Shown piece by piece: positions 147-24,132 of a stretch of 64,000 bases of DNA. The DNA comes from Occallatibacter sp. (lineage in GTDB: Bacteria > Acidobacteriota > Terriglobia > Terriglobales > Acidobacteriaceae). The notes below the pieces were generated by a model. It was given only the letters and a program-made list of their open reading frames with translations. It was not told where the DNA came from and ran no database searches. The DNA lies in contig JARLFZ010000001.1 of NCBI GenBank assembly GCA_031296305.1, forward strand, positions 1-64,000, written 5' to 3'. Positions within the stretch are counted from its first letter, which is position 1. Each line of letters starts with the position of its first letter. The translations under genes and the position numbers were made by a program.

Positions 147-1205
147 TCAGGCAACTTTAGCTCGTGCTCTCGCTTTCTGTTCGTACATCGCAGCGTCAGC
201 CCGCCCTACAAGCTCGTTCATCTCCTCGTCGGCTCCATGTGCAGCCAGGCCGATCGAAGCATCGACGCGTAATTTGAGAGTCCCGATTTTTCCCGGCACA
301 TCGTAGTTGCCGCAGACCCATTTGCGCAGGCGCTCGGTCTGTGCCTCAGCCTCTTCAAGGCCGGAATCGAAGACCAGAATGAACTCGTCTCCGCCCCAGC
401 GTCCAATCATGTCTGTAGAGCGGCAGGCAGACCGCAACTCGCCGGCAAACTGCTTGAGCAGCTCATCGCCGGTCAGATGGCCATGCGCGTCGTTCACCTT
501 TTTGAAGCCATCTATATCGACGATAGCTACGCAAAAAGTCGCGCAGGATTCAATGCGCTTCTCGATCTGTGCCTCGACGTACACGCGGCTGTTCACGCCG
601 GTCAGCGCGTCGCGCGAAGCAATCTTCTCAGCCTCCTCTAACTTGGTCTGGTAGTCCTCCACCTGTTTCTTCAAGTGGTCGAGGACCTCCTTGCCTTCTT
701 CGGTCATGCGGTCAATCGACGTCTTCAGTTCCGCCGCACTGATGTCGATCGACGTCCGAATCTCTGTCAGGTCTTCAAGCGTGGCGATCGCCCTGAGCCG
801 CTCGGTGACCGCGCTCATCTGGTCCGCGCTGCGCTGATCGCGCGCGCTCACCGATTCCGCAGTGCGCGCCATAGTGAGAAGCATCTCTTTGACTTCGCGC
901 GCCGTCCCCTGGTAGTGACGCGCCGCGCCGCGGCCCCATGAGCGCAATTGTTCTCGCGCCTGTTCACCATGGGCTGCAAGTTGATCGCTCCTCATCGCCG
1001 GAGAAAGCTCCGCTCTCAGCCGCCCAAGAGATTGCTTCAAGGCATCGCCGAGCCCCGGACAGGCATCCAAACTGCAATGGCCCATCTCGAGCAAGGTTGA
1101 GCCGTAGATGTCGAGGGCCGCTGCGAATGGTTGCTGTTGAACGGCCTCAGCGTCCAGGTCAGAACCTGGCGAATTGGAATCGAGATACCTCTTGATTGAA
1201 ATCAT
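147..1205 (-). CDS. Soluble GGDEF diguanylate cyclase
   Basis: Predicted to make c-di-GMP from two GTP in the cytoplasm. The 352-residue protein has no membrane segment. A helical, probably coiled-coil N-terminal half (about residues 60-190) leads into a GGDEF domain with a DALTG start and an intact GGDEF signature. An RSTD sequence lies exactly five residues before GGDEF, which fits the RxxD inhibitory site of feedback-inhibited cyclases. The frame opens at 1289, but the ATG at 1205 is preceded by GAGGAG (spacing is short), while the upstream start has no ribosome site. No sensory domain was recognised. It is divergent from a second GGDEF gene. Confidence 0.85.
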   Translation of the reverse strand: MISIKRYLDSNSPGSDLDAEAVQQQPFAAALDIYGSTLLEMGHCSLDACPGLGDALKQSLGRLRAELSPAMRSDQLAAHGEQAREQLRSWGRGAARHYQGTAREVKEMLLTMARTAESVSARDQRSADQMSAVTERLRAIATLEDLTEIRTSIDISAAELKTSIDRMTEEGKEVLDHLKKQVEDYQTKLEEAEKIASRDALTGVNSRVYVEAQIEKRIESCATFCVAIVDIDGFKKVNDAHGHLTGDELLKQFAGELRSACRSTDMIGRWGGDEFILVFDSGLEEAEAQTERLRKWVCGNYDVPGKIGTLKLRVDASIGLAAHGADEEMNELVGRADAAMYEQKARARAKVA

Positions 1206-1589
1206 CCGCTCCTCGGAAGACCCATATTGGCGGGGCGTTTTCACGCAACACTGGCCTTCTGGTTTATCGGCGGAGTACGGTCGGATCATGAGGAACGCGA
1301 ACCCATTCGCTTATTAGTCTGAAATCTCTCAGGCATTGAAGAAGAGATGTTATTAAGTCGAGAAATCGAAGGGGCGCGGCGCGGCGATTCCTTTTTGAGC
1401 GTGCGCCCATCTCGTTGTCAATACGGGCACTTGCTCGTTTCTTCCCAAGGAAAGCGGCGAGAGATTACGAAAGTGCGCGCCAAATTTAATTCAAAGATCA
1501 ACAAGAGAGCTATCGTGAATATTAGAGAATTGCCGATCATATAGATTGGCAATTGTTTTGCTTCCACACCGCTTGCTGAGGTGGTCCTC
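1206..1589. other. Intergenic region between divergent GGDEF genes
   Basis: About 380 bases without a supportable gene. Short frames on both strands lack family resemblance and ribosome sites. The region should carry both promoters. The only clear structure is the inverted repeat at 1528-1554. Confidence 0.5.
1528..1554. promoter_or_regulatory. Inverted repeat upstream of membrane GGDEF gene
   Basis: Arms AATTGCCGATC and GATTGGCAATT flank an ATATA centre: eleven pairs, one of them G-U. It lies about 35 bases before the GTG start of the downstream gene. It could be an operator or a weak terminator, since GTTTTG follows. Confidence 0.4.
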
Positions 1590-2924
1590 GTGGACTTGAG
1601 CAAAATCCCAGACGTAGCAGCTGTGGCTCTGCTCACCGTGGCATTCTTCTCAGTAGCGCGGCGTGGACCAAAATCCTTTTCCAGCGTGTGGCTCGTTGGC
1701 TGGTTGATGATCGTTCTTCACTTTGCTGCTTTCTTGTTTCTAGGGGCACCAGATAACTTCGGCGTCGCGGCCGCCATTCTGGGCTCGGCAGCGCTCGCGT
1801 GGGCGGGCATCCTTTTTATGTGGGCAGCCGTTCCCTATCGCTGCCGCGTTTCGAGCCGCTGGATGCTGGCCGCGATCCTCTCGACGAACACGCTCTACAT
1901 TTTCGTCACCTGCATCGCGCCAGCTGCTCACTGGCTCCTGGCGCCGGCTGCGATTCTGATCGGCGCTCTGCCGCTCGTCATTTCGCTTTTGAATATACGC
2001 AAGCTCAACCATCCGCTGCGCTGGGGTTCGGTGCTGCTTTACTCCGCGCTTTCCGTCTTTCTTCTGGTGGTCGAGAACCGGCCCGGCAACGGCCCTGACC
2101 TGGCTCTGAACGCGGTGTTCTTCACTGTCTACTTTGGATGCTGCATCCATTTCTGGTATGCATATCGGCGCGCTACCGCGGGAGCCCTCATCACCGTTCT
2201 GGGATTTTTAGCCTGGGCGAGCGTTTTTACCATCGCGCCCGTCATCGGCACGCTTTTCCCCAACTTCCATCTCGAGGGTGAGGTTTGGAATCTGCCCAAA
2301 TACGTGGTGGCCGTGGGCATGATCCTGATCCTGCTCGAGGACCAGATCGAGCACAACAAATATCTCGCGCTGCATGACGAACTCACAGGCTTGCCCAACC
2401 GCAGGCTCTTTCAAGATCGATTGGCGAGTACCCTCGAGCGCGCGCGGCGCACAGGTTCGCAAGCAGCCCTCCTGATGATCGATCTGGACCGCTTCAAGCT
2501 AGTCAACGACACCGTAGGGCATCATATCGGCGACGAATTACTCAAGCACGTCGGCCGGCTTTTCGTAGGCCGGGTGCGGCGCACAGACACGGTGGCCCGC
2601 ACCGGAGGCGATGAGTTTTCGGTGGTGCTGGAAGAGCCCATGAATCGTCCAGATGTGGTGCGCGTAGCACGGACATTGACGCAACTGCTCGAGCCTCCCA
2701 TCCTCCTTGAAGGCAATACGGTGCATATTGGCGCCAGCGTGGGCATCGCGATCTTTCCTGACGATGCAGGCGATGTCGAAGCATTGTGCATAGCCGCCGA
2801 CCTGCGCATGTACGCCAGCAAGCGCGCAGCAAGGACCGACGAAGATCGCGCCGCCCCGGCCCCGATCCCCCCTGACCCTTTTCAGTCGACCGACCCCAAC
2901 TCCCGCCTGCAACTCGCCAAATAG
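1590..2924 (+). CDS. Membrane-bound GGDEF diguanylate cyclase
   Basis: Predicted inner-membrane diguanylate cyclase of 444 residues. About eight hydrophobic segments fill roughly the first 250 residues. They are followed by a GGDEF domain with DELTGLPNR, a DLDRFK metal-binding stretch and an ARTGGDEF signature. RRTD lies five residues before GGDEF, so the inhibitory site looks intact. The frame opens at GTG 1581, but GTG 1590 has GAGG eight bases upstream and is preferred. The membrane part presumably senses a signal, but no named sensor domain was recognised. A strong hairpin follows the stop codon. Confidence 0.85.
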   Translation: MDLSKIPDVAAVALLTVAFFSVARRGPKSFSSVWLVGWLMIVLHFAAFLFLGAPDNFGVAAAILGSAALAWAGILFMWAAVPYRCRVSSRWMLAAILSTNTLYIFVTCIAPAAHWLLAPAAILIGALPLVISLLNIRKLNHPLRWGSVLLYSALSVFLLVVENRPGNGPDLALNAVFFTVYFGCCIHFWYAYRRATAGALITVLGFLAWASVFTIAPVIGTLFPNFHLEGEVWNLPKYVVAVGMILILLEDQIEHNKYLALHDELTGLPNRRLFQDRLASTLERARRTGSQAALLMIDLDRFKLVNDTVGHHIGDELLKHVGRLFVGRVRRTDTVARTGGDEFSVVLEEPMNRPDVVRVARTLTQLLEPPILLEGNTVHIGASVGIAIFPDDAGDVEALCIAADLRMYASKRAARTDEDRAAPAPIPPDPFQSTDPNSRLQLAK

Positions 2925-15171: not shown

Positions 15172-15909
15172 CTAGATTCTCGGCAAGTCTTCTGTGGCGA
15201 ACTTGTTGAACTCGGTGTGAAACACCGTCAATGCGCGCTGCATCATCTCTGCCTGGCGCTGCATCATGACCAGGTCGAGCGAACCCTCGACCACATCCTG
15301 ATTGGCGGCTTCGATGGCGCCCTGGTGGATCGAGGCGCTGGTCGCAGCCGTGGCCTTGGTCCCCGGCGGGGCTACGTAACGGTTCGCGCCCTCCGGCGTG
15401 AGCTGGGTGCCATCGGGAAACGCAAAGACGCCCACCTGCGCGACCACCCCGCCGGCCACTGACACCGCTCCGTCGGCGCCCACTGTGACCTCGCCGGGTG
15501 GAATAGGGATTGGCTGGCTGGTCGCGGAAAGCACCGGCTCGCCGGCCTGGGTCACCAACTGGCCGTTCGGCGCGCGGTGAAACCCGCCGTCGCGCGTGTA
15601 GCGCGGACCGTTGGGCGTCTGCACCATGAAAAACCCCTGACCTTCAATCGCCAGATCCAGGGGATTGCCCGTGGGCTCAAGCGCGCCCTGGGCCATGCTC
15701 AGCCGGTCGCCGCCCAACAGGCCGTAGTTGTTCACGGTTGCGCCCAGTTGCGAATCGGCAGCGTCAGGCCCCAGCAGCACCGAGCGGAAGAACTCACGCT
15801 CCGCGCGGTACCCCGGCGTCTGCGCGTTGGCTAGATTGGCCGCCGCCGTGTCCAAAGCCTGGGTGCGCGCCACCAGTCCCGTCATTGCCGCGTAATAGCC
15901 GCTGTCCAT
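15172..15909 (-). CDS. flgF: Flagellar proximal rod protein
   Basis: Proximal rod component exported by the flagellar type III system. The 245-residue protein has a rod-type N terminus (MDSGYYAAMTGLVARTQALD, AANLANAQTPGYRAER) and ends in a FlgG-like helix (EGSLDLVMMQRQAEMMQRAL). It is paired with flgG on the same strand. The 176-base gap upstream holds an inverted pair of AGGGA repeats. Confidence 0.93.
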   Translation of the reverse strand: MDSGYYAAMTGLVARTQALDTAAANLANAQTPGYRAEREFFRSVLLGPDAADSQLGATVNNYGLLGGDRLSMAQGALEPTGNPLDLAIEGQGFFMVQTPNGPRYTRDGGFHRAPNGQLVTQAGEPVLSATSQPIPIPPGEVTVGADGAVSVAGGVVAQVGVFAFPDGTQLTPEGANRYVAPPGTKATAATSASIHQGAIEAANQDVVEGSLDLVMMQRQAEMMQRALTVFHTEFNKFATEDLPRI

Positions 15910-16085: not shown

Positions 16086-16571
16086 TTATTGCAGGCCATC
16101 GCAGACGATGGTGACCTCGAAGGTCTCTTCGTCAAAGCGATAGCCGTGATGCAGTTGAAACTCCGGGGCCTGCACGTGCAAGTGATAGTCCCTGCCCGTA
16201 ATGACGGCGGGAACCGACAGGCCGCAGTTGGCAGCAAGCTCGGGAACCTTGCCCTTCCACGCGCCAGCAAGCATGTTGCAGATCTCGCCAATGCCGTCCT
16301 TCACCGTGTTATCGACGGAGTCGAACTCCATGCCTGTCATCTGTGCGGCAATCTTCATGGCTGTCTTGGCGCCCGAGCGGAATACACACGCCCCGCTCAA
16401 CAGCCCGCCGAAGCCTACCACGGAGGTGACCGTTTCCTTGTCCTCGACGGCCACGCCGGCCTCGCGCTTGCACTCGATGCTGAGCATCATCTGGAAAACC
16501 TCTTCCACGCTTGCATCCAGGTTTTGCGGATCGGAGACCCGCTGCACAGATTCACGCAACGATACCGCCAT
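16086..16571 (-). CDS. cheX: CheX-like chemotaxis phosphatase domain protein
   Basis: CheX-type proteins dephosphorylate CheY-P. The 161-residue protein shows the CheC/CheX pattern: VVGFGGLLSGACVF, then the helix DGIGEICNMLAGAWKGKV with the E-x2-N pair of the phosphatase site, then a C-terminal strand pair. The frame opens at 16655, but ATG 16571 has AGGGAG six bases upstream and starts a clean helix (MAVSLRESVQRV). It follows a cheY-like gene, its natural substrate. Confidence 0.85.
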   Translation of the reverse strand: MAVSLRESVQRVSDPQNLDASVEEVFQMMLSIECKREAGVAVEDKETVTSVVGFGGLLSGACVFRSGAKTAMKIAAQMTGMEFDSVDNTVKDGIGEICNMLAGAWKGKVPELAANCGLSVPAVITGRDYHLHVQAPEFQLHHGYRFDEETFEVTIVCDGLQ

Positions 16572-16670: not shown

Positions 16671-17054
16671 TCAGGCCGCATGTACCAGCGGAAGCACCCG
16701 CTCTTTCACCTGTTCGGCTGTAAATGGCTTGCGGATGTAACCCTTGGCGCCGGCCTGGATCGCCTGCTTGACATGTTCCTCGCTCGACTCGGTGGTGATC
16801 ATGACCACGGGAACGCCCTCTGCCAAATTCTGCGCGCGGATCTGGCGCAGAAACTCCAGGCCATCCATCGTCGGCATATTGATGTCGGAAAGGATCAGGT
16901 CCACGGGCTTGGACTTCAATACCTCCAGCCCCTCGGCGCCCGAGCCGGCCTCGTGCACCACCAGCGCATCCAACCCAGCCTGGCGCAGCGCCCGCTCCAC
17001 AATCTTGCGCATCACCGACGAGTCGTCAACAATCAGCGCCCGAATCTCGCTCAT
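16671..17054 (-). CDS. cheY: CheY-like single-domain response regulator
   Basis: Phosphorylated receiver that probably acts on the flagellar switch. The 127-residue protein is one receiver domain: VDDSSVMRKIVERAL (acidic pair and start of helix 1), DLILSDINMPTMDGLEF (phosphoacceptor Asp), VVMITTESSEE (switch Thr) and KGYIRKPFT (conserved Lys). ATG 17054 has a G-run eight bases upstream; the frame open to 17198 adds no receiver sequence. No output domain is present. Its neighbours fliM, fliN and cheX support a motor role. Confidence 0.9.
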   Translation of the reverse strand: MSEIRALIVDDSSVMRKIVERALRQAGLDALVVHEAGSGAEGLEVLKSKPVDLILSDINMPTMDGLEFLRQIRAQNLAEGVPVVMITTESSEEHVKQAIQAGAKGYIRKPFTAEQVKERVLPLVHAA

Positions 17055-17175: not shown

Positions 17176-18135
17176 TCAATGTGCGGCGGTTGAAGCAATC
17201 AGGTCGCGAATGGAGCCGGACTGCGGCAGTGGCCCTGCCTGACGCCCAAGCCAGATCCGCAGCCATATGCAATCGTGGATGCGTGCCAGACGTGCCTCCA
17301 CCGGGCGCGTCTCTTCGAGGGCTTTGGCGAGCGCCATGGCCAACGCCTGTTCTGTCGCCGCCTCAATCAGCTCCACGGAGGGAAAGCGCGCCTCCAGAGC
17401 GCGCCCGTGCGCCCTTCGGAAGAGAGAGCCCTGTACCAGACCAGCCTCCACATTCAGCCCGGTGATGCGCTCCGTAGCCAACGCCAGGGCAGGATCAATG
17501 CGGTCCTCAAAGCCCAGGTAGAGAATCCTGCCCGCTGCCACGCGCAGGGGCAAGGCGCCAAAGGCGTCGATGAAGAGCCTTGGCAACAGCACGGTAAGGT
17601 CTTCCGGGTTATGAAACTCCATGCTCAACACCGGGCAGCCCCACTGCAATCCCAGGGCCCGCGTCACCAGTTCCTCGCTCGAACTCCGCTGCCGCACCAG
17701 CCATTCGCCCAGCTTTCCGCTGCCCACGGCGCGCTGCGCGGCAAGCGCAGACCGCAGCTCCCCTTGCGTAATCCAGCCCTGCTCCAGCATGGCGAGACCT
17801 AGGGGAATGCGATGGCGGTAGCCCTCGCGCACCGCGCCGCGTGCATCCATCTCCCGGCGTAGCGCGGCCTCCACGCGCGCCCGCGTGCATGCGGCCGAGC
17901 AGCACCAGCCACCTTCAAAGATGGGAGCCTCGCGGCTGCGCCAGAGCCGAAGCCATCCCGAAGCGCAGCGCGGATTGGCGCATGTGCGCAAAATCCCGGA
18001 CTTTTCCCCTGCCCGGGATTCGCCCGGCCATGTCTGTCCGGCGGAAGACCGGGCAGAATCGTGTGCGGACGTCAACGAGCGCTCCACGCCGGCATCCGCG
18101 CCGGTCCGCGCCTTATGGCGCCTCAGAAGAGACAT
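17176..18135 (-). CDS. Zinc-ribbon plus MshEN/GspE-N-like protein in flagellar operon
   Basis: A 319-residue unnamed cytoplasmic protein. Cysteines at 52, 57, 78, 79 and 83 suggest a metal-binding knuckle. Residues 111-134 (PLGLAMLEQGWI, then L127, L131, Q134) and 141-164 (KLGEWLV, then L161, Q164) fit the repeated 24-residue pattern of MshEN, the N-terminal domain of GspE/PilB-type ATPases that in MshE binds c-di-GMP. The spacer is six residues. The continuation (LPRLFIDAFGALPLRVAAG) also resembles that N-terminal domain. No ATPase domain follows. Arg1 of motif one is Pro, and Gly10 of motif two is Arg. It overlaps fliN by 13 bases; GGAGAG supports the start. Confidence 0.7.
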   Translation of the reverse strand: MSLLRRHKARTGADAGVERSLTSAHDSARSSAGQTWPGESRAGEKSGILRTCANPRCASGWLRLWRSREAPIFEGGWCCSAACTRARVEAALRREMDARGAVREGYRHRIPLGLAMLEQGWITQGELRSALAAQRAVGSGKLGEWLVRQRSSSEELVTRALGLQWGCPVLSMEFHNPEDLTVLLPRLFIDAFGALPLRVAAGRILYLGFEDRIDPALALATERITGLNVEAGLVQGSLFRRAHGRALEARFPSVELIEAATEQALAMALAKALEETRPVEARLARIHDCIWLRIWLGRQAGPLPQSGSIRDLIASTAAH

Positions 18136-18914
18136 CGCACGCTCTCCAGACGCTTCCTGGGCGCAGCAACTTCGGTCACCCGCAGCCCGAAATTGCCGTT
18201 GACCAGCACCACCTCGCCGCGGGCTACAATCTTGTCGCCCACAATCAGGTCCACGGGGTCGGCTACATGGCGATCGAGTTCCACTACATCGCCGGGCCCC
18301 AGGTCGAGAATCTCGCCGAGCGGCATCTCGCGCGCGCCAAAGCGCAGCGAGGCTTCGAGTTCGACATCGAGCAACAGCTCAAGACCGGGAGTGAGCCCGG
18401 GGAGCAGTCCGGGGCTGGGGGCCTCGGGCCGGCCGACCGGCGCTTCTGGTGCGTCCGTTTCCGGCGCGGCCTGCACGGCGGCTTGCGGCTTCGCTGCGGC
18501 TTCGACTACGCGCAACTCGTCGCGAACCAGAATCGTCCAGGTCCGATCGCCGGAGCGGAGTTGAAAGGCGCTTGAGATCTGGCTCTGTTCCGCGATCTCC
18601 TCAACGTTCGCCACCTTGCACTTCTTGCCGGCACGCGCCAGCAGCTCTCCAGCGGCGGCGCCGAAGGTTTCGCCCACCAACTCCTTCCAGCCCGCCTTCT
18701 GATCCATGCCCTCGCCGACCAGCGGCGTCTCAAGAACCGCGCCGTCGACGAGAACGGCAAACCGGCCTTCCACCTCTCCCTCAAGCGTGGCCGCCCAGCC
18801 AAACGCTCCCGCGCCCAGCGGCCTGGGAAGTGACTCTGCCAGCTCCGGCTCGCCGGCCAGGGCCTGCGAGAGGAGCGCTCCGGCCACCTCGGCCCAACAA
18901 TCGAAATAGGTCAT
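18123..18914 (-). CDS. fliN: Flagellar switch protein FliN/FliY
   Basis: C-ring component of the rotor switch. The 263-residue protein ends in a typical SpoA domain (LELLLDVELEASLRFGARE, EILDLGPGDVVELDR, VNGNFGLRVTEV). The N-terminal 150 residues are longer than in enteric FliN and recall FliY, whose N-terminal half is CheC-like, though I see no phosphatase signature. ATG 18914 overlaps the fliM stop as ATGA and has AGGGGAGG upstream. A shorter SpoA protein lies at 26360-26737. Confidence 0.88.
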   Translation of the reverse strand: MTYFDCWAEVAGALLSQALAGEPELAESLPRPLGAGAFGWAATLEGEVEGRFAVLVDGAVLETPLVGEGMDQKAGWKELVGETFGAAAGELLARAGKKCKVANVEEIAEQSQISSAFQLRSGDRTWTILVRDELRVVEAAAKPQAAVQAAPETDAPEAPVGRPEAPSPGLLPGLTPGLELLLDVELEASLRFGAREMPLGEILDLGPGDVVELDRHVADPVDLIVGDKIVARGEVVLVNGNFGLRVTEVAAPRKRLESVRCLF

Positions 18915-19879
18915 CGTGCCTCCCCTCCGGCGATCGGGCGTTCGACCCGCGCCGCGCGATGCGCCCCGTGCCGCATGGCCCGCGCCTCGAGAAGCGGCAA
19001 TCCGCCCACACGCCACTCGGAGAGCGTGTCCGCAGCGGCGGTGAGGCGCAGCGTGTCGCCCGCCTTGAGCTCTTCGAGCGCGCTCGCTGCCAGGCGCACG
19101 GAGGGCAACTGCAGCGTGCAGCCAAAGCGAATGCGCCGCGCCACGGCCTCCATCCGCGTGCGGTTCTCGTCGGAGTGCCGGCTGCGCCGGCCCCAGTCCG
19201 TAGTCAAGCGGCGCAGAATGGTGTTGGCAACCACGGCGGGAAAGGCCAGGTTCAGCAGTCCCGAACTGTGCGGCATGCGGATTTCGAAGCTCAGGCAGAG
19301 CGCCTTTTCCGTAACGGCGATGATGCGCGCCACCTGGGTCTGCATCTGGCGGCGCTCGAAGCTGAACGTGAGACCGACCTGCTGCCAGGCAACCGTCAGT
19401 TCGCGGCAGACAATCTCCACCACGCTGGCCAGAATCGATTCCTCGATGTCGGTCAATTCGCGCAGCGGGCCGTCCTTGCCGTCGCCGCCCAGGAGCAGGT
19501 CGATCATGGGCGGCGCCAACCCAAGATCGAGCTGCAGGACCGAAAGCGCTCCCAGCGGCTCCAGCCGCACCGAGGCCACATAACTGATCTCGGGAATTCT
19601 GAGCAAGAACTCATTGAACTGAATCTGCTCGGCCGAGACCAGGTTGACCTGAAAACGGGTGCGCAGCCATGCCGCCAGGTTGTGGGTGAGGTTGCGCGCA
19701 AAAAGGTCGTTCAACATGCTGATGGCGCGCAATTGATCGGTCGAGATCTGTCCGGCGGAGGAGAAGTTATACGGCACTACGCGGGCCCGCACCTCGGGGC
19801 GCGACGACTCGGGCGATGTGCTGCGCGCGGCTTCGAACAGCGCATCGATCTCATTCTGCTTGAGGGTCTTTTCCGTCAA
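18911..19879 (-). CDS. fliM: Flagellar motor switch protein
   Basis: Central C-ring protein that binds phosphorylated CheY and FliG. The 322-residue protein starts MTEKTLKQNEIDALFEAA; this N-terminal EIDALF segment is the CheY-binding peptide of the family. The middle domain (LRAISMLNDLFARNL, then MIDLLLGGDGK) and a C-terminal SpoA-like segment follow. It sits between fliA and fliN, with a four-base overlap into fliN. Confidence 0.96.
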   Translation of the reverse strand: MTEKTLKQNEIDALFEAARSTSPESSRPEVRARVVPYNFSSAGQISTDQLRAISMLNDLFARNLTHNLAAWLRTRFQVNLVSAEQIQFNEFLLRIPEISYVASVRLEPLGALSVLQLDLGLAPPMIDLLLGGDGKDGPLRELTDIEESILASVVEIVCRELTVAWQQVGLTFSFERRQMQTQVARIIAVTEKALCLSFEIRMPHSSGLLNLAFPAVVANTILRRLTTDWGRRSRHSDENRTRMEAVARRIRFGCTLQLPSVRLAASALEELKAGDTLRLTAAADTLSEWRVGGLPLLEARAMRHGAHRAARVERPIAGGEAR

Positions 19880-19932: not shown

Positions 19933-20820
19933 TCAGCGCCGTGCCGATTGCCGGGTTCTGGCTTTCAGGCCTTCGAGGCCGGCGGCCGCGGGAGGGATAC
20001 GATCGCGGACTCCGCGCGTCGCCAGGTCACGCAAGGCAGCGCGCAAGTGCACTACCGCCGAGGCGTGCATCTGCGAGACCCGCGACTCGACCACGCCCAG
20101 CGCCAGGCCAATCTCGCGCATGGTCATCTCCTCGTAGTAGTAAAGGGTCATCACCAGCCGTTCGCGGTCAGGCAGATCGGCAATCGCCCCGGCCAGCCGC
20201 TCCTCAAGTTCGCCCCTCAGGCAGCGAAACAGCGGATCCTCCTCGGGGCGGCCGGGCACGTAGGCCAGCTCCTCCTCGCCGGAGTTCTCGTTGCGCTCCA
20301 GATGCAGCGTGCCGATTTCAAGTCCCTTGAGATCGCCCAGCAGTTGCTGGTAATCCTCGAGACCGATGCCCATCTCGGTTGCGATCTCGGCCTCGCCCGG
20401 AGCACGGCCGAAGCGGGCCGTCAACATGCGGATGGCCTCCTCGACAGCGCGACCCTTGCGGCGCAGTTCGCGCGGGCTCCAATCGAGGGTGCGCAGACTG
20501 TCGAGGATCGCGCCCCGGATGCGGAACTGCGCGTAGCTGCGAAACTGCACTTTCTTTTCGGGGTCGAATTTCGCGAAGGCGTCCATCAGCCCGACCACGC
20601 CCGCCGAGACCAGGTCCTCGATGTCCACATGCTGGGGCAAGCGCTCATGGATGCGACGGGCGAGGAAACGCACGATGGGCAGGTGCTCGAGCAGCACGCG
20701 CTCCTGCTCACTGGTCAGTGCCGGCGGCATCCCGCCCGGAGGATAGCCACCCGCCGCCGCGCGGCGCGCGGATTTGGGGTCCCTCATTGCAGCAGTGCCG
20801 TCGACTCCCATCGCTTCCAC
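19933..20820 (-). CDS. fliA: Flagellar sigma factor 28
   Basis: Sigma factor for late flagellar genes. The 295-residue protein has region 2 (HVDIEDLVSAGVVGLMDAF, KVQFRSYAQFRIRGAILDSL), region 3 (RKGRAVEEAIRML) and region 4 (LPDRERLVMTLYYYEEMTMR, then GVVESRVSQMHASAVVHL). The first 35 residues are poorly conserved and Met12 is another possible start. Its antagonist flgM is in the same cluster. flhF and flhG, which often separate flhA and fliA, are absent here. Confidence 0.95.
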   Translation of the reverse strand: MEAMGVDGTAAMRDPKSARRAAAGGYPPGGMPPALTSEQERVLLEHLPIVRFLARRIHERLPQHVDIEDLVSAGVVGLMDAFAKFDPEKKVQFRSYAQFRIRGAILDSLRTLDWSPRELRRKGRAVEEAIRMLTARFGRAPGEAEIATEMGIGLEDYQQLLGDLKGLEIGTLHLERNENSGEEELAYVPGRPEEDPLFRCLRGELEERLAGAIADLPDRERLVMTLYYYEEMTMREIGLALGVVESRVSQMHASAVVHLRAALRDLATRGVRDRIPPAAAGLEGLKARTRQSARR

Positions 20821-20864: not shown

Positions 20865-22967
20865 TCAGCGCACGGCGCCTACGGGCCGCAGCCGGATCTC
20901 GGGTGGAATCTCACTGGCGGCGAGCACGGCCAGACGAGGCAACACCGGCTCCAGCCAGCGCTTGACGTGGAAACGCGCCGGACTGGGACAGAGGAGCACG
21001 GGCGGTGCCGCGGCGGATGCCGAGCCGATAAGGGATCTCACAGAATCGGTGAGGCGGCGGACCACCGGGGTTCCCGGGGTTGGAGCTCCGGAAAGCAGGC
21101 GCTGACCAGACTCCGGCTGGATGGCCGAAAGAATCTCCTCTTCGAGTGCGGGATCAAGCAGGAGCACCGGAAGCAGCCCGTCGCTGTCCAGCAGGGGCCG
21201 CACCAATCTGCGCCCCAACGCCTGGCGGGAGGCCTCGACCAGGGCCACCAGGCTCTTGTTTACGGGCGCAGTTTCGAGCAGGGCCTCCAGAATTGTGCCC
21301 ATATCGCGGATCGATACCCGCTCCCGCAGCAACTGCTCCAGGACCCGCGCCACCTCGCCCAGGGTGAGCAGCTTGGGCACCAGCTCTTCGAGCAGTTTGG
21401 GGTGCGAGTCATTCAGGGCGTCCAGCAGGCGCTTGATCTCGGCGCGGCCCAGCAACTCTCCGGCATGCTGGCGGATCAGTTCTCCGAGATGGGTAGTGAT
21501 CACGGTCACCGCGTCCACCACCGAATAGCCCGCCGCGATGGCCTGCTCTTCGAGGGCCGGAGCGATCCAGACCGCGGGCACACCAAAGGCCGGCTCCCGC
21601 GTCTCTTTGCCGGTAAGCGGCCGGCGGCCGGGCTCGCCCGAGACCGCCAGCAGGTGTGGGCCCTCCGTCTGCCACCGGCCGACCTCGATGCCGCGCAGCG
21701 AGATCAGGTACTCGCGCGGCTTGAGGCGCAGGTTGTCGGAGATGTGCACGGGGGGAACCAGAAAGCCCATCTCGGACGCAAGATGGCGGCGCAGGGCGCG
21801 CACCCTTGCCAGCAGTTGCCCGCCCTGCTTTTCGTCGACCAGTGGAATCAGTTGGAAGCCGATCTCGAGCGTCAGGTCCTCGAGGCGAAGCAGCGAAGAG
21901 AGCTCGGAATTCTGCGCGCCTTCGAGTTTCTTTTTCTCCGCCGGCGCCGGCTCGGCCACGGCCGCCGGACCCTCGGCCGCAAGCCGTCTACCGCCCACAA
22001 ACAGCCCTCCGGCCACGGCCAGAAAGGCGATCTTCGGCAGTCCCGGGATCAGGCACATGCAGGCCGACACCGCGCTTGCCATGTAGAGCGTCGCGGGGCG
22101 GCCCAGGAGCTGTTGCCGGATCTCGCCCCCCAGCAGGCCTGCCGAGTTGGCGCGCGTCAGCGTGATGCCCCCGGCCACGGAGACCAGCAGCGAAGGTATG
22201 ATCGTGACCAGGCCGTCGCCCACGGTGAGCACGGTGTAGGTGCGCGCGGCCTCGCTTAACTCCACACCCTGTTGCAGGGTCCCGATCAGCAGGCCGGCCA
22301 CAATGTTGACGCCCGTGATCAGGATCGTGGCCAAAGCGTCGCGCTGGTTGAAGCGCGCCGCGCCGTCCATGGCGCCGTAGAATTCCGCCTCGCGAGCAAT
22401 GGCCTGGCGGCGCCGCCGCGCCTCCGCCTCGTCGATCAGCCCCGCGTTCATGTCGGCATCGATGGCCATCTGTTTGCCGGGCAATGCATCCAGCGTGAAG
22501 CGCGCCGTGACCTCGGCGGTGCGCACGGCGCCGTGTGAAACCACCAGAAACTGGATGGCGACCAGGGCTAGGAAGAGCACGAAGCCCACTACATAATTGC
22601 CGCCCACCACGAATTGCCCGAAGGCCTCGATCACGCTGCCTGCCGCGGCGGTTCCTTCCTGGCCGTGCAGCAGAATGCGCCGGCTGGAGGCGATGTTGAG
22701 CGAAAGGCGGAACAGGGTGAGCAGCAGGAGCAGCGTCGGAAAAACGGAAAGCTCAACCGCACGGCGGATCTGCACTGCCGAGAGAAACACGATCACCGAT
22801 GCCGCCATCGAGAGCGCCAGCAGAAGGTCCAGGCCCGCGGCTGGCACCGGCACGATCATGACGAAGACCACGCTGATGGCCGCCATGGGCAACAGGTAGT
22901 CGCGCAGATGGTGCCAGATCGAGGCCCGGGCCGGAAGCGTTGCCGCGGGCAAGGTCGCTGTACTCAT
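20865..22967 (-). CDS. flhA: Flagellar export gate protein FlhA
   Basis: Nonameric inner-membrane export gate that receives substrate-chaperone complexes. The 700-residue protein has about eight N-terminal membrane segments and the FHIPEP loop region (LSVFPTLLLLLTLFRLSLNI, ALPGKQMAIDADMNAGLID). A cytoplasmic C-terminal domain follows from about residue 330. Length and motifs are normal. It lies between flhB and fliA. Confidence 0.97.
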   Translation of the reverse strand: MSTATLPAATLPARASIWHHLRDYLLPMAAISVVFVMIVPVPAAGLDLLLALSMAASVIVFLSAVQIRRAVELSVFPTLLLLLTLFRLSLNIASSRRILLHGQEGTAAAGSVIEAFGQFVVGGNYVVGFVLFLALVAIQFLVVSHGAVRTAEVTARFTLDALPGKQMAIDADMNAGLIDEAEARRRRQAIAREAEFYGAMDGAARFNQRDALATILITGVNIVAGLLIGTLQQGVELSEAARTYTVLTVGDGLVTIIPSLLVSVAGGITLTRANSAGLLGGEIRQQLLGRPATLYMASAVSACMCLIPGLPKIAFLAVAGGLFVGGRRLAAEGPAAVAEPAPAEKKKLEGAQNSELSSLLRLEDLTLEIGFQLIPLVDEKQGGQLLARVRALRRHLASEMGFLVPPVHISDNLRLKPREYLISLRGIEVGRWQTEGPHLLAVSGEPGRRPLTGKETREPAFGVPAVWIAPALEEQAIAAGYSVVDAVTVITTHLGELIRQHAGELLGRAEIKRLLDALNDSHPKLLEELVPKLLTLGEVARVLEQLLRERVSIRDMGTILEALLETAPVNKSLVALVEASRQALGRRLVRPLLDSDGLLPVLLLDPALEEEILSAIQPESGQRLLSGAPTPGTPVVRRLTDSVRSLIGSASAAAPPVLLCPSPARFHVKRWLEPVLPRLAVLAASEIPPEIRLRPVGAVR

Positions 22968-23004: not shown

Positions 23005-24132
23005 TCATCGCGGAATTCCTCCTCGGCCTTGACCCGCGGCGCGGACGCGGGCGGCGGCTTCCCGCGCTTGCCGATCCCTGAGTTCCGCCTCCACCCGCTG
23101 GCGGTAGAGATAGGCCAGAATCGCGGCCACGGCAGCATAGAGATCCACCGGGATGGCCTGGCCCACTTCGACCGTGCGGAAAAGCGACTGCGCCAGCGGC
23201 GGATTCTCCACAATGGGCACGCCCGCCCAGCGCGCCTCGGCCTTAATCTCTTCGGCCAGCAGGTTGCGTCCCTTGGCCAGTACCTTGGGCGCCTCCATGG
23301 TGACGAAGTCAAAGCCCAGGGCCACCGCGTAATGCGTAGGGTTGGTCAGGACCACGGCCGCCTTTCCTACGTCCGCCTTCACGCGGCGGCGGCGCATCTG
23401 GCGCTGCAGGTTGCGGATGCGGCCGCGAATCTGCGGATTGCCCTCGGTTTCCTTGTACTCATCGCGCATATCCTGTTTGCTCATCTTCAGGCGCGATTCG
23501 CGGCTCTGCCACTCGACCAGGTAGTCGATGGCCGACCAGCCGAACAGCAGCCAGGCCGCGGCCACGAGCAATCCGTAAACATCCTTGCCGAGAATCTCCA
23601 GCCGCTCAGTTGAGAAGGGTGGAATGTCCAGCTGCCGGGCAATACGCTGCACGGCAAACACGGCCAGGATCGCGGCCGGGATAAGGGACTTGCCGAGCCG
23701 GGCCGCGGCGCGCAGCGAGAACAGGTTTTTGAGATTCGCGACGGGATTGATGCGCTCCGGCTTCCATGCCAGGGCGCTCGCGTGCACGGAGACGCCGCCG
23801 GTCTGGGCGATGCCCGCTCCCAAAGCCCCCACCACGACCAGCGCCATCACGACCGCAGGCGGTGCAAGCACTTCGAGCGTCAGGCGGCGCACGGCGACCA
23901 GCGTCGGCTCCAGTGTTGCCGGCTCCCAATGCGCCGGAGTGCCCAGGGCAAGGAACCCTGCAAAGGCGCCCCGCCATGCCTCCATGGTCCGGGGGCCCAG
24001 CACGCCCAGGGCCATCGCCCCGGCCAGAGTTCCTGCAGCCGCTGTCAGTTCGCGGCTGTGCAGGATGTCGCCTTCACGGCGCGCCTTTTCGCGACGGTGC
24101 TGCGAAGCTTGTTCGGTGCGCTCGCCGGGCAT
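23005..24132 (-). CDS. flhB: Flagellar export switch protein FlhB
   Basis: Inner-membrane protein that switches export from rod/hook to filament substrates. The 375-residue protein has the N-terminal EKTRR-like region (REKARREGDILHSREL), four membrane segments and a cytoplasmic domain with the self-cleaving NPTH motif at residues 264-267. The C terminus is basic. ATG 24132 lies three bases after the fliR stop. Confidence 0.96.
   Translation of the reverse strand: MPGERTEQASQHRREKARREGDILHSRELTAAAGTLAGAMALGVLGPRTMEAWRGAFAGFLALGTPAHWEPATLEPTLVAVRRLTLEVLAPPAVVMALVVVGALGAGIAQTGGVSVHASALAWKPERINPVANLKNLFSLRAAARLGKSLIPAAILAVFAVQRIARQLDIPPFSTERLEILGKDVYGLLVAAAWLLFGWSAIDYLVEWQSRESRLKMSKQDMRDEYKETEGNPQIRGRIRNLQRQMRRRRVKADVGKAAVVLTNPTHYAVALGFDFVTMEAPKVLAKGRNLLAEEIKAEARWAGVPIVENPPLAQSLFRTVEVGQAIPVDLYAAVAAILAYLYRQRVEAELRDRQAREAAARVRAAGQGRGGIPR

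Follow-up and report, generated by a model that had tools for sequence, protein, structure and literature searches.

A candidate stand-alone c-di-GMP receptor of the MshEN type encoded next to fliN in flagellar operons of Acidobacteriota

The window analysed here, a stretch of 64,000 nucleotides from Occallatibacter sp., carries on its minus strand a flagellar cluster in the order flhB, flhA, fliA, fliM, fliN, a gene for a protein with an MshEN (GSPII) domain, cheY, cheX, flgF, flgG, flgA, flgH and flgI (Table 1; the last four were named from similarity and position). An earlier sequence-only reading had proposed the MshEN protein as a candidate c-di-GMP receptor and placed it at 17176-18135. 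These coordinates were correct; the plus-strand frame over the same interval is interrupted by stops, and the coding strand is minus. The overlap with fliN described in that reading is real (13 nt), and the cheY and cheX genes that it named downstream were seen in the domain scan. The overlap was exactly 13 nt in all 12 loci compared (the window and eleven public loci), which suggests that translation of the MshEN gene may be coupled to that of fliN. A GGAGAG upstream of the ATG was found in the same 12 loci (GGAGAGT-type variants GGAGAGC/GGAGAGT), and the start M(S/P)xL was kept in 12 of 12 loci examined. The FliN protein of the window has an N-terminal extension of ~170 residues with no Pfam match.

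Table 1. Coordinates of the features discussed (window positions unless a locus is given)
Feature	Position	Strand	Details or basis
Diguanylate cyclase candidate	147-1289	-	GGDEF motif intact
Diguanylate cyclase candidate	1581-2924	+	GGDEF motif intact
flgF	15172-15909	-	Next flagellar gene in cluster; domain scan
cheX	16086-16571	-	Domain scan; start approximate
cheY	16671-17054	-	Domain scan
MshEN protein gene	17176-18135	-	319 aa; ATG start at 18135
C-terminal segment, residues 246-319	17179-17400	-	No recognised fold
MshEN C-terminal subdomain, residues 167-245	17401-17637	-	PF05157 positions 3-82; PilB profile-profile comparison; fold matches
MshEN motif II, residues 141-164, KLGEWLVRQRSSSEELVTRALGLQ	17644-17715	-	K1, L2, G3, V17, L21, Q24; R at Gly10
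MshEN motif I, residues 111-134, PLGLAMLEQGWITQGELRSALAAQ	17734-17805	-	P at position 1; L2, G3, L17, L21, Q24 present
Four-Cys knuckle, C52-x4-C57 ... C79-x3-C83, zinc-finger-like	17887-17982	-	Invariant in alignment
fliN/MshEN gene overlap, 13 nt, ATGnnnnnnnTGA	18123-18135	-	Sequence
GGAGAG, Shine-Dalgarno-like, inside fliN	18142-18147	-	6 nt before ATG; sequence
fliN	18123-18914	-	FliMN_C at residues 180-249; long N-terminal extension
fliM	18911-19879	-	Domain scan
fliA-type sigma factor	19933-20820	-	Domain scan
flhA	20865-22967	-	Domain scan
flhB	23005-24132	-	Domain scan
HDOD-type neighbours	L069:8631-9338; L133:4787-5470; L116:6293-7246; also L117, L118		

The MshEN domain covers residues ~105-245. 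The tandem 24-residue pattern previously noted at residues 111-134 and 141-164 was borne out by profile searches. The NCBIfam c-di-GMP_motif profile (NF053729) matched residues 111-163 with an E-value of 9.1e-8 (31.8 bits, under the curated cut-off of 38), and the best NCBIfam match was NfrB (E 2.7e-9, residues 103-234). The Pfam MshEN family (PF05157) gave a weak match to residues 167-245 (17.4 bits, under the curated cut-off of 23.1). Thermus PilF was the best solved relative by sequence (E 2e-17), and a profile of 18 family members detected PilF at E 1.2e-33, PilB at 7e-18 and MshE at 3.3e-11; both MshEN subdomains aligned with acidobacterial PilB in profile-profile comparison. Thus, the HMM check proposed in the sequence-only reading gave significant matches, and the E-values rule out a chance motif match. 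Pfam and NCBIfam scans of the 319 residues gave only MshEN-type matches and no RecA-like ATPase domain, as had been claimed. In the Pfam scan, neither a PilZ match, as in YcgR-type brakes, nor a Response_reg match, as in Cle-type REC proteins, was obtained. A PilB-type N-domain lacking the ATPase domain might be what is left of a decayed type IV pilus ATPase, with no function. However, the full length, the exact overlap and the invariant residues are conserved across many families; because of this conservation, such decay was rejected as extremely improbable.

The predicted structure agreed with the profile searches. An AF2 model of a trimmed construct, built from a shallow alignment, had pLDDT values of 87-94 over the four-helix ligand region (construct mean 63), and the full-length model had a mean pLDDT of 52. 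The solved structures closest to the modelled ligand subdomain were c-di-GMP-bound PilF GSPII-B (Z 13.6) and MshE (Z 13.2), whereas the first unrelated structure had a Z of 2.9; Foldseek agreed. The fold predicted is that of MshEN, with confidence over the four-helix part and not over the Cys knuckle or the C-terminal segment. The cysteine cluster reported earlier was confirmed as a four-Cys set (C52, C57, C79 and C83) that is invariant in the family alignment, and the C-x4-C ... C-x3-C pattern occurs in 115 of 118 family frames, other families included (some frames are duplicate loci). This arrangement is reminiscent of treble-clef or FCS-type zinc fingers, and metal binding would be expected from the pattern. 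The C-terminal segment was also compared with the N2 domain of PilB, of which it could have been a remnant. Distant homologs aligned in the right register, but with an E-value of 0.076 and a probability of <1%, and since this comparison was not significant the relationship is not claimed.

In the MshEN motif, positions 1 (R), 2 (L), 3 (G), 17 (L), 21 (L) and 24 (Q) touch c-di-GMP and position 10 (G) forms a turn; replacement of this loop glycine with Leu or Ile weakens MshE (PMC5013675). The window protein has acceptable residues at all six key positions of both motifs, and the loop position is Gly in motif I and Arg in motif II. The spacer between the motifs has 6 residues, versus 5 in MshE. 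The two weak points raised earlier, Pro at position 1 of motif I and Arg at the loop glycine of motif II, are indeed both present; however, the second reflects a relaxation throughout the clade and the first has a precedent. In PilF GSPII-C, motif II starts with Pro, yet this domain binds c-di-GMP at ~0.5 uM (PMC11731258), and by this analogy Pro is not disqualifying.

To describe conservation of the site, residues were tallied in non-redundant family members (36 from the same genus, 26 from other genera of the same bacterial family and 12 from other families). With conservative residue classes and Pro accepted at position 1, the contact positions of both motifs were kept in 36/36, 25-26/26 and 11-12/12 proteins, respectively. 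Gly3 and Gln24 were present in both motifs of all 36 own-genus proteins and of all 12 from other families; in the other genera Gly3 was kept in 26/26 for both motifs, and Gln24 in 25/26 for motif I and 26/26 for motif II. Positions 2, 17 and 21 were hydrophobic throughout, with few exceptions. In the own genus, motif I begins with Pro and motif II with K/R, and proteins of other families mostly carry K, R or L as the first residue of motif I, in agreement with the extended consensus given in PMC11731258. In motif II, the loop glycine was kept in 6/36 own-genus proteins, 1/26 from other genera and 11/12 from other families. Mean entropy of the contact columns was 0.54 bits versus 2.05 for the remaining domain, and in 100,000 random draws of columns no set reached this degree of conservation. 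Loss of the motif in homologs, which the sequence-only reading had named as evidence against itself, was therefore not seen. All ten other-family homologs scanned (L064-L067, L116-L118, L120, L122 and L123) exceeded the NF053729 cut-off of 38, whereas the scanned own-clade and second-flagellum copies stayed under it. Thus, the ligand site looks ancestral and retained, and the clade of the window protein may bind c-di-GMP more weakly, judging from these scores.

The gene follows flagella closely. Among 35 other genomes of the genus, it was found in 24 of the 27 with FlhA and in none of the 8 without; two of the three FlhA-containing exceptions are contig ends, and the third has lost the flhA-flgG stretch. 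At L078 (G035), flhA is joined to flgG by deletion or misassembly, and fliA, fliM, fliN, the MshEN gene and flgF are gone. Own-genus loci have the order flhB-flhA-fliA-fliM-fliN-MshEN gene, with fliN directly upstream in the loci examined, and in other families the MshEN gene lies between fliN and flgF. A survey of the order fliN-gene-cheY, also proposed earlier, thus gave a mixed result: the place after fliN is fixed, but cheY and cheX are often, not always, next. This bears on whether a c-di-GMP receptor of this kind might use its Cys knuckle to regulate CheY/CheX or the expression of flagellar genes, instead of the motor itself. Both genes lie downstream in most own-genus loci, L123 has the arrangement CheX-CheY-CheX, and MshEN fusions with CheX and CheA have been reported (PMC5013675). 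However, cheY and cheX are not adjacent at L039, L041, L057 and L073 or in other families, while fliN stays upstream, and no DNA-binding domain was recognised in the protein; we consider such an output quite unlikely.

Across Acidobacteriota, the full-length protein was detected in 55 of 396 genomes. FlhA was present in 54 of these carriers versus 78 of the 341 genomes that lack the protein (Fisher p 1e-28, uncorrected for kinship); it was ≤7.2 kb from the gene on the same contig in 51 carriers, and the gene was inside a flagellar cluster in 54 of the 55. In G233, G271 and G369 the gene is beside other flagellar genes. The G369 locus (L128) has fliM-fliN-MshEN gene without upstream flhB, flhA and fliA, in a genome without FlhA, and flagellum loss or an assembly gap is possible. 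One clear exception was found, in G293 (L127:6246-7070), where a Cys-knuckle-MshEN homolog with near-canonical motifs is located outside a flagellar cluster, between tatD and secF/secD. No match was obtained in 78 of the 132 flagellated genomes of the sample (each absence call being based on the six candidates scored in a genome), so the gene is specific to certain lineages rather than a universal flagellar part. L079, L083 and L133-L135 were also checked directly, and no copy was found. HDOD-domain proteins are encoded beside fliN or beside the MshEN gene, both in second flagellar systems and in acidobacterial families other than that of the window; the order at L116-L118 is fliN, an HDOD-type gene, a small coiled-coil protein (DUF2802-like in L118) and the MshEN gene. 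In another flagellar cluster, the C-terminal domain of FlhB is encoded on its own (L122:13151-13441), close to a FliK-like gene.

In three genomes (G008, G031 and G014) there are second flagellar operons, and each of these operons includes a divergent MshEN gene of its own. In the two full-length copies (L069 and L070), motif I is missing Gln24 and motif II is missing Gly3, and because of these losses they should bind c-di-GMP poorly if judged by the mutational rules of PMC12002112. Uncoupling of the second flagellum from c-di-GMP would be one explanation, and a ligand-free role of the protein the other; given the loss of contact residues in these copies, the protein may have a ligand-independent role too. 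As a tentative extension, there might be one Cys-knuckle-MshEN module translationally coupled to fliN per flagellar system, responsive on the main flagellum and unresponsive on the second. Pairs of near-canonical and degenerate copies in two-flagellum genomes constitute a natural test.

The persistence of these second-flagellum copies raises the possibility that the MshEN fold is kept as a scaffold of the C-ring or export apparatus and that the response to c-di-GMP was lost in the clade. The scores of the window protein under both curated cut-offs (17.4/23.1 and 31.8/38) and the absence of the motif II loop glycine from 30/36 own-genus proteins would fit such an adaptor, and XpsE and PilF GSPII-A are known MshEN domains that do not bind. 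However, Gly3 and Gln24 of both motifs, which are lost in non-binders, are invariant in the own genus, where the first residue is also still Pro (motif I) or K/R (motif II), and within the domain conservation is highest at the contact columns. Loss of binding is thus unlikely in our view. The candidate receptor reading is supported by the profile match, the MshEN fold and the contact motif kept in homologs; binding of c-di-GMP is very probable for the family as a whole and fairly probable for the window protein.

Other components of c-di-GMP signaling are encoded in the same genome. The two diguanylate cyclases previously noted in the window correspond to two GGDEF proteins with intact motifs, ~14-17 kb from the MshEN gene. 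The genome (84% complete) has 12 GGDEF matches and six PilZ matches; in the three PilZ proteins scanned of these six, no YcgR-type N-domain was recognised. One other c-di-GMP_motif match was found in the genome, inside a 535-residue frame.

We suggest that the protein acts as a stand-alone c-di-GMP receptor of the flagellum, on the switch or the export apparatus, a role that its sequence and gene position make somewhat likely; the assignment of switch or export machinery as the target is held with similar, modest confidence. One c-di-GMP would be bound by the MshEN domain between the two 24-residue motifs, and binding would reorient its N- and C-subdomains. When PilF binds its ligand, a turn of a helix unwinds and the C-terminal subdomain changes its orientation (PMC11731258). 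A change of this kind could alter contacts with FliN or FlhA, with the Cys knuckle and/or the C-terminal segment anchoring the protein to the C-ring or export gate; FliN would be the first guess. High c-di-GMP might then alter motor switching, speed or export. Such a mode of action would be YcgR-like, but the receptor would consist of an MshEN domain and a four-Cys knuckle.

Direct c-di-GMP control of flagellar motors is known to occur via PilZ proteins and CheY-like proteins. YcgR and MotL would share with the window protein the proposed job of a small c-di-GMP effector of the flagellar motor; however, they carry PilZ instead of MshEN and are not homologous to it. MotL serves one of two flagellar systems (PMC8203827). 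Similarly, Cle proteins of Caulobacter are c-di-GMP effectors at the flagellar motor (PMC5677366), but their fold is CheY-like. The MshEN domains of MshE, PilB and PilF are homologous over both subdomains and have the same fold and motif pair, with near-complete correspondence of contact residues. The window protein differs from them in the absence of the ATPase domain, the N-terminal four-Cys knuckle, the Pro at position 1 of motif I seen in its class and the location in an operon for flagella, not for pili or a T2SS. The E. coli protein NfrB, a glycosyltransferase with C-terminal MshEN, likewise has this domain outside traffic ATPases, but the window protein lacks the glycosyltransferase domain. 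MshEN is also tied to chemotaxis modules in the associations with CheX and CheA (Wang et al. 2016, PMC5013675), whereas here it is a separate gene after fliN, with a Cys knuckle. FssF of Caulobacter, a C-ring accessory protein, was considered as well; it is a FliN homolog unrelated to the MshEN protein. The open-access literature searched, which also covered acidobacterial flagella with c-di-GMP and GspE N-domains in flagellar operons, contained no report of an MshEN flagellar effector of this kind.

Should c-di-GMP binding and contact with the C-ring or export gate both hold for this protein, flagella would be controlled by a further type of receptor, one built into the operon, in a phylum of soil bacteria that are abundant and little studied. 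It is thus a candidate for the part that passes the swim-or-settle signal to the flagellum in many Acidobacteriota.
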